Positions 16,750 to 23,712 of a stretch of DNA of 38,986 nucleotides are shown here, in pieces; the stretch's first letter is position 1; the number at the start of each line of letters is the position of its first letter. Source of the DNA: Chloroflexaceae bacterium (GTDB lineage Bacteria; Chloroflexota; Chloroflexia; Chloroflexales; Chloroflexaceae). The notes beneath the pieces are model-generated. The model was not told the DNA's origin. It worked only from the letters and a program-made list of their open reading frames with translations, and ran no database searches. Position numbers and translations under genes: made by a program. The stretch spans positions 1 to 38,986 of the forward strand of contig JAAURD010000020.1 of assembly GCA_012034075.1 (NCBI GenBank). The letters run 5' to 3'.

Positions 16750-18677
<1,928 letters not shown>

Positions 18678-18969: not shown

Positions 18970-20634
18970 ATGGCAAATCGGCCCCGTTCATCATCAACTA
19001 ATCGTATTTCCCGCAAGATCAGCCGTTTCTGGCAAGGTTCATGGTGGCGCCCCATGCGACAACTCGCCGGTCGGCTGCTGTTGGGCCTGCTGGCGCTTTG
19101 GATGGCGTGGAATCTGCTGCGTCTGGCCCCGGCGGTGCTCGCTTTTCTGATGACGCCGCTCTTTGGCTTGACGGTCTTTGTGATATTTTTAATCGGGCTG
19201 AATCTCTTTGTGTTGATCGGGTTTCTGTTTTTCCTGATCTATTCGTTTGGGCGCACGCCGGTGACCTGGCTGGCGGTGGGTCAGATCGATGCACGTTTTG
19301 ACGAGTATTACGGTGATAACCAGGTGCGTGATACCGCCCGTTCGCTGGTGACGCTGTTGCAGGCCGGGGCGTCTCGTGCCGTGACCCGCTCAATCTCACG
19401 CGGGGTGCTCTTCTGGGGCGCAGAGGGGAGTGGCAAGCAGTTTCTGGCGCGGGCGATTGCGGCCGAAGCGCGGGTGCCATCGGCCTATATCAATGCGCGT
19501 GCGTTCAAGGCTGGCTGGCTCGGCACCGACAACCTGAAGGGGCGCTTGCTGGCCCGCAAGGTGCAGCGCAGGGCGCAGCAGTATGGCGGCTGTCTGCTCT
19601 TTATCGATGAACTGGATGTGTTAGGCCATCCAGATAGCGGCCCGTTGAATGAGTTACTGCTCTATCTGCGCACGTCAACGACAACGAAGCGTGGGTGGCG
19701 GCGCTGGCTGCCATGGCGCCGTCAGCCGCGCAGCAGCGTCATTCTCACCATTGGCTCAACCAGCCAGCCGCAGCAGCCCGATGCGTTACTGTTACAGACG
19801 GGCTACTTTCGTCAGGTGTTGAGCTTTCCGCCGCTCGAAACCGAAAGCCGCTATCAGCTGGCACGCGCCAGCCTTGAGCCGATTGCCTGTGAGCCGGCCG
19901 TGCTTGATCGGCTCGTCTATCAGACCAACGGCGCTACTGCTGGCCTGATACGGGCAGTTATTCACGAGGCAACGTTGTATGCCCGCATGGATCAGCGCAC
20001 GGCGATGACCGATGCCGATATTGACCGGGCGTTGCAAGCTCATCGCCATGCGTTACCAGCACCGCTGGTGGTGTATTCCTATGCCGAACGGCGGCGATCG
20101 GCCTATCATCAGGCCGGGCATACCTTTCTGCAGGCGTTGTATGGCATGGCGACCAATGGACAGTACGATCATGATCAATCAGAAGCGCTGGACGAATTCC
20201 CGCTGGCTGATATTGATGATCGCGAAGGCCCATTGAGCCGCCAGGAATTGCTCCACCGGCTGCATATTGCGCTGGCCGGGCGGGCCGCCGAAGAGGAGTT
20301 GCTCTCGGTGCAGACGACCGCAGCAGCGCGGGATCTCTCGCAGGCGACGGCAATTGCAGCGCGGATTATCGGGCTGTTTGGCATGGATGGTTATCTTTTC
20401 TCGTTTGCTGCGGTTGACCCGCAGAGCCTGGGTCGGGCAATGGAGCAGAGCGATTTGCGCGAGCGCATCAATACCTTGCTGCTCGATCAGTATCATCAGG
20501 TGCGCCGCCAGATTGCGCAGAACCGCATGGTCGTAACGGCCATTGCCGAGGCCCTGCTGTTGTGCGATACGCTCACCGATGGCGATGTTGCGGCCATTGT
20601 CAGTAACCAGCCACAGTGGGAAGAGGCCGTTTGA
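18970..20634 (+). CDS. FtsH-like membrane AAA protein with altered zinc-protease motif (pseudo-protease)
   Basis: A 554-residue relative of the FtsH membrane protease. Hydrophobic helices fill about residues 31-92, with no room for the usual extracellular domain. An AAA module follows: Walker A GAEGSGKQ at 150-157, a pore-loop-like AGWLG at 181-185, Walker B CLLFIDELD at 208-216, and a second-region remnant TGYFRQV where FtsH has GRFDRQV. The C-terminal domain aligns with the FtsH peptidase, but HEAGH has become HQAGH (380-384). Both histidines and the likely third ligand Asp455 (ARDLSQAT) remain while the catalytic glutamate is glutamine. It could therefore bind zinc yet not cleave, acting as an unfoldase, chaperone or partner of a true FtsH. 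It sits 11 bases before a small membrane protein gene and is divergent from gyrB. Confidence 0.85.
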   Translation: MANRPRSSSTNRISRKISRFWQGSWWRPMRQLAGRLLLGLLALWMAWNLLRLAPAVLAFLMTPLFGLTVFVIFLIGLNLFVLIGFLFFLIYSFGRTPVTWLAVGQIDARFDEYYGDNQVRDTARSLVTLLQAGASRAVTRSISRGVLFWGAEGSGKQFLARAIAAEARVPSAYINARAFKAGWLGTDNLKGRLLARKVQRRAQQYGGCLLFIDELDVLGHPDSGPLNELLLYLRTSTTTKRGWRRWLPWRRQPRSSVILTIGSTSQPQQPDALLLQTGYFRQVLSFPPLETESRYQLARASLEPIACEPAVLDRLVYQTNGATAGLIRAVIHEATLYARMDQRTAMTDADIDRALQAHRHALPAPLVVYSYAERRRSAYHQAGHTFLQALYGMATNGQYDHDQSEALDEFPLADIDDREGPLSRQELLHRLHIALAGRAAEEELLSVQTTAAARDLSQATAIAARIIGLFGMDGYLFSFAAVDPQSLGRAMEQSDLRERINTLLLDQYHQVRRQIAQNRMVVTAIAEALLLCDTLTDGDVAAIVSNQPQWEEAV

Positions 20635-20645
20635 GGAACTGAGCA

Positions 20646-21257
20646 ATGGTACCGCTGATTCTCATGAGTATGGTGTTGCTTTTTCTGTTGCTCGTGCTGG
20701 TGGTGCTGGTGTTCTCCCCCAATGCACGGGCCCAGCGGGCGCGTGCCGCTGGGCGGCTCAGCGTGGCACTGCAAATCTATGTCCGACGGCATGCGCCAGC
20801 GCAGGTGGTTGCCTGCTTGCAGGAAGATTTGCCGTCATGGCCGGTGCGGGCACAGCTGATCCTGGCCTTTGAAGAGTTGATACAGTTGGAGACCAGTGCC
20901 CAGGTAGCACTGGCCGCCGGTGCGCCCCAGGCGTTTGCCACCAGTTTCACCGATGTTTCGCAGCACGCCCTGGAAAACCTGCTCCAGACCGCCGATCGCT
21001 TGTGGGCGGTTGCCGTCCAGCGGGTCGATTATGCGGTGTTGCAGCAGGGTCTGGAACGCGAAGATGAGCGGCTCCAACGTCTGGTCGGCGCAATTCGGCG
21101 TGCCCGCGAAGAGTTGGCACTGATTACGCTGGCCGATGCCCATGCCGCCGATTTTGACCATGTGACGGATCATCTGCGCTTGCTCGCCGATATGGCACGC
21201 CATGATCGTGGCGGGCAGCAGATAGAAGCGGTAAGCGAATGGTTGAACCAGGGCTAA
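20646..21257 (+). CDS. Small membrane protein, partner of the FtsH-like gene
   Basis: A 203-residue protein I do not recognise. It begins with one strong transmembrane helix (MVPLILMSMVLLFLLLVLVV), followed by a basic stretch (ARAQRARAAGR) that predicts a cytoplasmic C-terminal part. The rest is almost wholly helical, and the segment around LEREDERLQRLVGAIRRARE looks like a coiled coil. It starts 11 bases after the FtsH-like stop, with TGAGGA as ribosome site, so the two are one transcription unit. By position it may be an adaptor or regulator of that AAA protein; this is inference only. Confidence 0.7.
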   Translation: MVPLILMSMVLLFLLLVLVVLVFSPNARAQRARAAGRLSVALQIYVRRHAPAQVVACLQEDLPSWPVRAQLILAFEELIQLETSAQVALAAGAPQAFATSFTDVSQHALENLLQTADRLWAVAVQRVDYAVLQQGLEREDERLQRLVGAIRRAREELALITLADAHAADFDHVTDHLRLLADMARHDRGGQQIEAVSEWLNQG

Positions 21258-21318
21258 GCTGTGGTATCATAGCCTTGGTGTTGTCGTGGGTCTGATGTGT
21301 TTTCAATGGAGAAGCTGT

Positions 21319-23712
21319 ATGTTTCAGGTCTATGCGTCGGGTCGGGTGCTGCGTGCGGTCATTCTGGTGGTGGGTATCAGCTTGCTACTGCTGGCAATGG
21401 GTGTGCCCACCCTGGCACGTGAAGAACCAGCACCGGAACCCTCGATTATTGGCGGTGAAGATGCCAGCAATGGTGAGTTTCCATGGATGGTCGGTATTGG
21501 TTATGCTAATGAGCCAATATTAACCGATGCAGTGTATTGTGGTGGCAGTTTGATTGCTGAGCGCTGGGTGTTGACCGCCGCTCATTGCGTCCAAGGTGAA
21601 CAAGCCGATGATCTCATAGTCATTCTGGGTGAAGTCGATCTGAATCAAGATCCGGTACAGACCATCAATGTCCAATCATTGATTATTCATCCGGAGAATG
21701 ACTCCTTCAATGTGTACAATGATATTGCACTGGTCTTATTAAGCGAGCCAGCTCATGTGGCTCATCCCAATATTGAACTGATTGATCGGCTTGTCCCTGA
21801 TCAGGACGACCAGCTTGCGGCGGTAGGGAGCGAGACGATTATGACTGGCTGGGGGGTGACCCAACAGGATGTTTATGCCGAGGTGCTGCAACAGGTGAGT
21901 CTGCCCATAGTTGCCGCTGATGTCTGTCAGCAAACCGGGTTCGATGTTGATTCTGCCAAACAGATTTGTGCTGGAGGTGAGACTAGTCGGGATAGTTGTG
22001 TGGGAGATAGTGGTGGGCCGCTGGTGGTAACCGATGGTAGCACCTGGTACCAGGTAGGTATAACCAGCTATGGACCACAAAAATGCGGCACAACACCTGC
22101 TGTGTATACACGGGTATCGGCCTATATGGATTGGATTGACACACAACTGGCGATTGATATTGATACACCCCTGACGCTTGATCTCAGTGTGGACAATGCC
22201 CCGGCTGGTGCAGCTTTTACCTTTGGCGAGGCGGTGCGCTTTGCGGCCACGGTGAGCCAGAGCCAGGCCGGTGATCGTCTGGTGCTGACCTTTGCCGATG
22301 GCACCCAACAGACGAGCGATGCCCTACCAGCTTCGTCTGAGCCTGTCAGTGTGACATTCCAACACTTCTATGGCACTGATCTGGAGTCATTTGAACACCG
22401 CTTGGAACTCGACTCAAGCATCTATCTGGCACCGCTGGCGACGCTGGACTTGCCCGTTTCGACCGGGGTGACGGTCACCCTTGACCCGGCGGCGCCGCAG
22501 GTAGGCGATGATGTGACCTTTACGATTGAGGTACCGCGTCCGCCGCTGGTGAATGGCACGACGGGCGGCAGCATCAGCGCCATTCTCTCGGAGGGTCTGC
22601 TCAGCACCCTCTTTCAGCTCGATCCACAGCCGTTGACTATGGCTGGCGAAACAGTGTCATTTTCCTACCAGTTTACCGAAACGGGCACGTATAACCTGGG
22701 CCTGTTTATTGATGAAACGGCTGTGTATAACACGCGGCTGGAGAACGTGGGCCTGGCCTTTACGGTTGCTCCCGCCAGCGGGCAGCTCGATGTGCAGCCG
22801 CTGGTTGATACGATTACGTTGACCGATACGGCGGTGATTACGGCGAGCCTGAGCGGTATCGATACTACAACCAGCATCAGCTTTACGGTGACGCCAGCAA
22901 CCGCCGCGCTCGTTGCACCGCAGGCAGTCACGGCTGAGCCAGTGGATGGCACCGCGGTGGTGAGCACGACGCTCTACCCGCTGGGGCCAACCGGCCAGGT
23001 TGAGGTTACCGCCAATGCGCTGGTCGCAGGCCGGCTGTTGAGCGATACCACCAGCGTTACGATCAGGTCGGTTGATGATTTGCCCAACCTCAAGACGTGT
23101 GCCAATGAGGCCGCGCAGGGCATCACATGCGATGCTATCAGCATTGCGCCGCTCACGCTGCAGGCTGGACTGCAACAGGCGGTGACGGGCGATGCGACTG
23201 TTATTGTGCAGGAAAGCCCGGTGACCCTGGTGGGCCTGACCCAGGTGGTGGCCAACCCGATTGGCCCGGAGCTGACCACTGCGAACTGGAATGCGCAGCG
23301 GCAAGAGCAACGCCGGCAGATACCGTTTTACTTCCGGGTGCAGGTGATTGACCCGCAACAAGGGGCATTGGATGCGGCCGACATCGCCCTGGCGGGTGGT
23401 TATGCTATCACCGTTGATATGGCCGAAACCGGGATGCTGCCGTTTACGCCCACACCTGACTTGGTTGAACTGGCGCTCAGTCAATTTATTTCCAACACGG
23501 TCGAGCTAGAGCACTATCTGCCCAATGAAAGCGAATGGCAACGGGCGGGCACATTTCCTGGTGATACTGGGAGCGACTATGACTATGCCTGGGTGCCCAC
23601 CATTGGTAGTGACTTTAGCTTTGCCACAAGGCTGACCGATGTAGGCGATATGACGGTATCGGTACGCGAAGTGCGCACGGTCTATCTGCCGTTGATTCGG
23701 CGTGGCGAGTAA
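21319..23712 (+). CDS. Secreted trypsin-like serine protease (S1A) with C-terminal beta domains
   Basis: A 797-residue extracellular protease. A signal peptide (about 1-33) and short propeptide lead to the activation site IIGGEDASNGEFPWMV (Ile43). The chymotrypsin-fold triad is intact: His89 in LTAAHC, Asp135 in NDIALVLL and Ser231 in GDSGGPLV. Asp225, six residues before the serine, predicts trypsin-like cleavage after Arg or Lys. After about residue 285 come beta-sandwich domains of CARDB/Ig-like character, ending in the tail RTVYLPLIRRGE, a C-terminal motif I associate with secreted Chloroflexota proteins. ATG 21319 is chosen over 21286 because it directly precedes the signal peptide and has TGGAGAAG upstream. 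It follows the FtsH-like operon in the same direction after 61 bases. Confidence 0.9.
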   Translation: MFQVYASGRVLRAVILVVGISLLLLAMGVPTLAREEPAPEPSIIGGEDASNGEFPWMVGIGYANEPILTDAVYCGGSLIAERWVLTAAHCVQGEQADDLIVILGEVDLNQDPVQTINVQSLIIHPENDSFNVYNDIALVLLSEPAHVAHPNIELIDRLVPDQDDQLAAVGSETIMTGWGVTQQDVYAEVLQQVSLPIVAADVCQQTGFDVDSAKQICAGGETSRDSCVGDSGGPLVVTDGSTWYQVGITSYGPQKCGTTPAVYTRVSAYMDWIDTQLAIDIDTPLTLDLSVDNAPAGAAFTFGEAVRFAATVSQSQAGDRLVLTFADGTQQTSDALPASSEPVSVTFQHFYGTDLESFEHRLELDSSIYLAPLATLDLPVSTGVTVTLDPAAPQVGDDVTFTIEVPRPPLVNGTTGGSISAILSEGLLSTLFQLDPQPLTMAGETVSFSYQFTETGTYNLGLFIDETAVYNTRLENVGLAFTVAPASGQLDVQPLVDTITLTDTAVITASLSGIDTTTSISFTVTPATAALVAPQAVTAEPVDGTAVVSTTLYPLGPTGQVEVTANALVAGRLLSDTTSVTIRSVDDLPNLKTCANEAAQGITCDAISIAPLTLQAGLQQAVTGDATVIVQESPVTLVGLTQVVANPIGPELTTANWNAQRQEQRRQIPFYFRVQVIDPQQGALDAADIALAGGYAITVDMAETGMLPFTPTPDLVELALSQFISNTVELEHYLPNESEWQRAGTFPGDTGSDYDYAWVPTIGSDFSFATRLTDVGDMTVSVREVRTVYLPLIRRGE

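Follow-up and report, generated by a model that had tools for sequence, protein, structure and literature searches.

The window, a stretch of 38,986 nt from a Chloroflexaceae genome, carries at 18970-20634 (+) an intact open reading frame of 554 amino acids for an FtsH-like protein with a degenerate active site. At roughly even odds (about 0.5), we read this protein as a pseudo-FtsH that has lost its protease activity and acts as a membrane-anchored, FtsH-shaped subunit that binds or holds clients or regulates FtsH1, the other FtsH of the genome. Both the loss of activity and the holding or regulating role are inferred from motifs, trees and gene context. The protein belongs to a second, short-N-terminus FtsH found across the class Chloroflexia (Chloroflexaceae, Roseiflexaceae-type families and Thermomicrobium-type genomes), for which we coined the label FtsH2; it has no database name, and the copy of Thermomicrobium roseum is annotated only as 'AAA family ATPase'.

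A degenerate FtsH in the window

The features of the locus, each with the evidence behind it, are as follows.

18970-20634 (+): degenerate FtsH2, putative pseudo-protease, 554 aa (ORF, Pfam, motif alignment, gene tree, phmmer)
19063-19254 (+): pair of N-terminal membrane helices close to each other (about aa 32-95) and not separated by a periplasmic domain (hydropathy; AlphaFold helices 26-59 and 65-94, low-to-moderate confidence)
19417-19440 (+): Walker A GAEGSGKQ (aa 150-157), with the Lys but with Gln in place of Thr/Ser (alignment)
19516-19518 (+): pore-loop-1 aromatic W183, kept in the window, Arg in the other three clade members (alignment)
19597-19617 (+): intact Walker B LFIDELD (aa 210-216), followed by a segment of 9 residues versus 27-44 in canonical FtsH2 (alignment)
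19762-19764 (+): sensor-1 position, Asn replaced by Ser265, within TIGSTS 260-265 (alignment)
19792-19818 (+): second homology region (SRH) LQTGYFRQV, aa 275-283, versus LRPGRFDRK (alignment)
20107-20121 (+): HQAGH, aa 380-384, with the zinc ligands His380 and His384 but Gln381 (CAG, 20110-20112) instead of the catalytic Glu (sequence, alignment)
20332-20334 (+): third zinc ligand Asp455, in TTAAARDLS, present in all four clade members (alignment)
20646-21257 (+): one-TM protein of 203 aa, predicted helical, 11 nt downstream of FtsH2 (ORF, hydropathy, model)

Homology to FtsH was supported by Pfam, where AAA (47.6 bits) and Peptidase_M41 (62.3 bits) exceeded their cut-offs, and by phmmer, in which residues 109-548 matched solved FtsH structures (8e-32) with HQAGH aligned to HEAGH. 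In the NCBIfam FtsH equivalog TIGR01241 (cut-off 600), the protein scored 119.5 bits and fell below the threshold, as did canonical FtsH2 proteins (308-350 bits). An AlphaFold model built from five sequences was of modest quality (pLDDT 65.7, pTM 0.45); its top structural matches were FtsH proteins, and subunits of the Ycf2-FtsHi motor were among its matches.

The glutamate of HEXXH serves as the general base, and it is this residue that Gln381 replaces, whereas the Asp of the third zinc ligand (D455) is in place. Compared with an active M41 protein, the AAA module keeps the Walker A Lys and the Walker B DE and departs at the Walker A Thr/Ser (Gln), the sensor-1 Asn (Ser) and the first of the paired SRH arginines (Tyr279); the second was probably retained as Arg281 after a one-residue deletion. 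The earlier note, made from the letters alone, had named HQAGH, the Walker A ending in Q, the replaced SRH arginine and the retained Asp455, and all of these residues were correct. It had also pointed to closely spaced N-terminal helices without an extracellular domain; the helices are real by hydropathy, but a short N-terminus is normal throughout the FtsH2 group. Its assignment as a pseudo-protease was borne out at the sequence level, the Glu being lost in all four copies of the clade described below.

Origin and selection of the degenerate clade

In an alignment of 62 FtsH-like proteins, HEAGH, GPPGTGKS and RPGRFDRK were found in 40 of 40 canonical FtsH2 proteins, and a 41st, more distant one (G082) had HETGH. 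Degenerate FtsH2 was found in four genomes: that of the window (G000), G010, G015 (MAG Chloroflexaceae bacterium SM2_1_1) and G025 (MAG Chloroflexales bacterium N1_Bin_METABAT__22_1). In this order, the catalytic Glu position is occupied by Q, K, R and R and the sensor-1 Asn position by S, H, H and H, the HEAGH-equivalent motif reading HQAGH in the window, HKAGA in G010 and YRAGQ in both G015 and G025. The segment following Walker B has 9-14 residues in the four copies versus 27-44 in canonical ones. The window copy keeps the Walker A Lys156, Walker B D213/E214, the pore-1 W183, both zinc histidines and D455. G010 keeps the Walker A Lys, the Walker B DE and both paired arginines, with Arg at the pore aromatic; decay has gone furthest in G015 and G025, where neither zinc histidine is left and the pore aromatic, the Walker A Lys and the Walker B DE have disappeared too. 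Long frames are intact in all four genomes, with protein identity within the clade down to approximately 33%, and none of the four copies has lost D455 or the residues that define the fold.

In the FtsH2 gene tree, the four degenerate proteins formed one clade inside FtsH2 (support 100/99), on very long branches. A long-branch artefact as the cause of this placement was rejected on the basis of leave-one-out trees, in which each degenerate lineage alone still fell within FtsH2. Long-branch attraction could still tighten the mutual grouping of the four copies; however, a GyrB+RpoB tree grouped the same four genomes (94/91) with an inner G010+G015+G025 group (100/99) and the same branching order, and the derived features common to the four, namely a TAAAxDL motif, the short post-Walker-B segment and the lack of the upstream gene F3, agree with it. 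Judged by these trees and features, the degenerate FtsH2 proteins are a single clade with a single origin, inherited vertically. Moreover, FtsH2 of G015 and G025 adjoins the same set of polysaccharide genes (including Wzz, CpsB/CapC and a glycosyltransferase) as the canonical gene of G006 and, in part, those of G013 and G032; it is therefore the ortholog in place and not a newly acquired copy. Genes of the Wzz/CpsB type adjoin FtsH2 in several Chloroflexaceae (L034, L035 and L040). A link with loss of photosynthesis was rejected, as reaction-centre L/M genes are present in all four genomes of the clade.

Purifying selection was measured on the G015-G025 pair only, giving a dN/dS of 0.18 (NG86) or 0.22 (YN00), far below 1. 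Canonical FtsH2 pairs ranged from 0.02 to 0.19, so that this pair lies at the upper end, above most of them. A value of approximately 0.2 points to a pseudoenzyme that is probably maintained; by extension, its maintenance is inferred for the window genome.

The earlier note had suggested a search of the genome for a canonical FtsH, and one is present. FtsH1, on contig C321, is the only other M41 protein of the window genome and carries GPPGTGKT and HEAGH; in all four genomes of the clade, FtsH1 has GPPGTGKT, RPGRFDR and either HEAGH or HEGGH. FtsH1 and the window protein share the domain order and 28% identity. Unlike the window protein, FtsH1 has a periplasmic-type N-terminus and an active site with the canonical motifs, and it passes the equivalog cut-off of 600 with 812 bits, whereas the window protein, at 119.5, does not.

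Gene neighbourhood

Canonical FtsH2 usually has a gene that we call F3 directly upstream, in T. roseum as well. In F3, a hydrophobic segment accompanies a conserved domain of approximately 100 residues, and the protein had no match in Pfam or NCBIfam. This unnamed F3-FtsH2 gene pair is conserved across Chloroflexia (e.g., L099:5089-7620 and L038:8000-10720), and four f5 genomes (G083, G084, G085 and G086) carry clusters of two or three F3-like copies. No F3 match was obtained in any genome with a degenerate FtsH2 (G000, G010, G015 and G025) or in Chloroflexus (g10), whose FtsH2 is canonical. Missing sequence could explain its absence from the window assembly, which is 88% complete and contains indel errors, but the other three genomes agree on the absence.

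Downstream of the window FtsH2, the 203-aa protein begins with a strongly hydrophobic N-terminus (one TM), and the remainder is predicted to be helical with low confidence (pLDDT 58). Homologues were found in G030, G083, G136, G139 and G141, and in the stretches of these genomes that were examined, none lies beside FtsH. A small family of related one-TM helical proteins occurs in distant Chloroflexota (e.g., L167:6024-6782 and L073:611-1357). On its other side, the 203-aa gene adjoins one (21286-23712, +) whose 808-aa product is a trypsin-like S1 protease in which the C-terminal region is long.

On the upstream side, gyrB is divergent from FtsH2 and starts approximately 290 bp away. The earlier note had suggested that FtsH and a co-transcribed coiled-coil partner, paired next to gyrB, may be a conserved unit of the lineage. 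The nearness to gyrB is real in the window but was found in no relative examined, and the pairing with the 203-aa protein likewise occurs in none. In seven of the relatives inspected, gyrB comes after a different membrane-protein gene (N1), and members of the partner family are located away from FtsH; such a unit is therefore not supported. A search of the window genome for N1 gave no match, an empty result that shows little as the search had no control. In G014, GyrB (L170:3246-7301) is 1351 aa long with two intein-like insertions.

Putative function and known counterparts

Proteolysis by the window protein is very unlikely because the catalytic Glu is lost, and E. coli FtsH E415A is inactive (PMC3866087). 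Walker A and Walker B are gone from two apparently maintained members of the clade and the pore aromatic from three, so the function common to the clade probably requires neither cutting nor threading. The E. coli E415A protein, although enzymatically inactive, retains its client sigma32 at the membrane (PMC3866087); that a protease-dead FtsH can do so favours a binding, holding or FtsH1-regulating role.

According to the scenario that we prefer, the Chloroflexia-specific FtsH2 would be the ancestor and the degenerate gene its vertically inherited ortholog. The common ancestor of a small, reaction-centre-bearing clade of Chloroflexaceae would have lost the Glu, the sensor-1 Asn and most of the post-Walker-B segment, and later decay would have gone to differing degrees by genus, the overall FtsH fold and the membrane anchor being retained. 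The present proteins would not cut; they would hold FtsH2-type clients at the membrane or tune FtsH1, whose active-site motifs are intact, with weak or absent ATP turnover. More tentatively, we propose that protease and motor were dismantled stepwise under continued selection and that the FtsH hexamer thereby became a scaffold or client holder at the membrane that works without ATP. As a counterpoint, the window copy could still bind or hydrolyse ATP and bind zinc, since both zinc histidines, the pore-1 Trp, one Arg finger and the Walker A Lys and Walker B DE are in place.

These retained residues (Lys156, D213/E214, W183 and probably Arg281) also speak for a pseudo-protease with a working motor that threads or unfolds proteins by ATP without cutting them. 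The plastid Ycf2-FtsHi import motor is of this kind, and the model has subunits of it among its structural matches; plant FtsHi proteins have lost the protease site, yet their AAA+ domain is described as intact (PMC8197885). We regard a working motor of this sort in the window protein as rather unlikely. In the window copy, the Walker A Thr/Ser, the sensor-1 Asn and the first paired Arg are replaced and only 9 residues follow Walker B, and the clade-wide function cannot need threading when the pore aromatic is absent from three members (G010, G015 and G025) and Walker A and B from two of these (G015 and G025). The unfoldase action that the earlier note had inferred is weakened by the same losses, of which those of the sensor-1 Asn and most of the post-Walker-B segment are common to the clade. 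ATP-driven threading thus appears unlikely for the clade and possible for the window copy.

Decay towards loss remains a live alternative, given that several related genera have no detectable FtsH2 (homologue searches of g15, g18 and g8). The gene would then be an evolutionary remnant, FtsH2 having become dispensable in this part of the family. The very long branches, the failure to detect the F3 partner in any of the four degenerate genomes and a G015-G025 dN/dS above that of most canonical pairs are consistent with this, but frames that stay long and intact despite divergence to approximately 33% identity, a dN/dS well below 1, and fold-defining residues and D455 conserved in all four make drift an unlikely explanation.

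It is highly improbable that the window protein is still a protease with relaxed catalysis through His380, His384 and Asp455; although all three zinc ligands are there, the Glu is gone, the E. coli E415A enzyme is inactive (PMC3866087) and motor residues are damaged too. Least credible is a sequencing or assembly error in an otherwise active FtsH. GAG to CAG is a single base change (G to C), and the same assembly has a frameshift near 17500 in gyrB (16750-18677, -), splitting it into frames of 391 and 249 aa where relatives have one of approximately 640-670 aa; this frameshift probably arose in the assembly, and rpoB on contig C287 seems to be split too. Those errors are indels, however, whereas the FtsH2 frame is intact, and Walker A, sensor 1, SRH and the post-Walker-B segment are altered as well. 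The earlier note would have given up its reading if homologues had HEAGH and the Gln codon a read-level error; homologues outside the clade do all carry HEXXH, but in the other three members, which come from independent genomes, the position holds K, R and R and more residues are lost, so Gln381 is not accounted for by an isolated error, and a read error as the full explanation is rejected.

Among known proteins, canonical FtsH2 of Chloroflexus, the Roseiflexus type and Thermomicrobium shares with the degenerate clade the short two-helix N-terminus, the AAA and M41 order and common ancestry (100/99); its GPPGTGKS, RPGRFDRK and HEAGH, its 27-44-residue segment and the F3 gene that most canonical genomes have upstream were lost in the clade. 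The plastid FtsHi proteins are inactive M41 homologues with an intact AAA+ domain beside active FtsH (PMC8197885; PMC11266112). Like FtsHi1-5 of plants and algae, the window protein lacks the catalytic HEXXH and is kept alongside an FtsH with intact motifs. In contrast to FtsHi1-5, the Chloroflexota case is of independent bacterial origin, its motor is damaged and no hetero-complex is known for it. A presumed inactive FtsH has been reported in Prochlorococcus marinus SS120 (PMC8197885), which is likewise bacterial and thought to be non-proteolytic, but cyanobacterial. Among the papers searched, no description of a Chloroflexota pseudo-FtsH was found, which is no proof that none exists. Plastid FtsHi is the closest concept, and by its motifs the window protein is a bacterial counterpart of the inactive chloroplast FtsH proteins.

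To our knowledge, most inactive FtsH proteins described so far are plastid ones, and these retain the motor. The clade described here would add an independent bacterial case with intermediates, from the window copy as the least to G015 and G025 as the most degenerate, together with an active outgroup. It also brings to light the unnamed F3-FtsH2 gene pair across Chloroflexia and may allow one to ask which functions of FtsH outlast the loss of cutting and threading.
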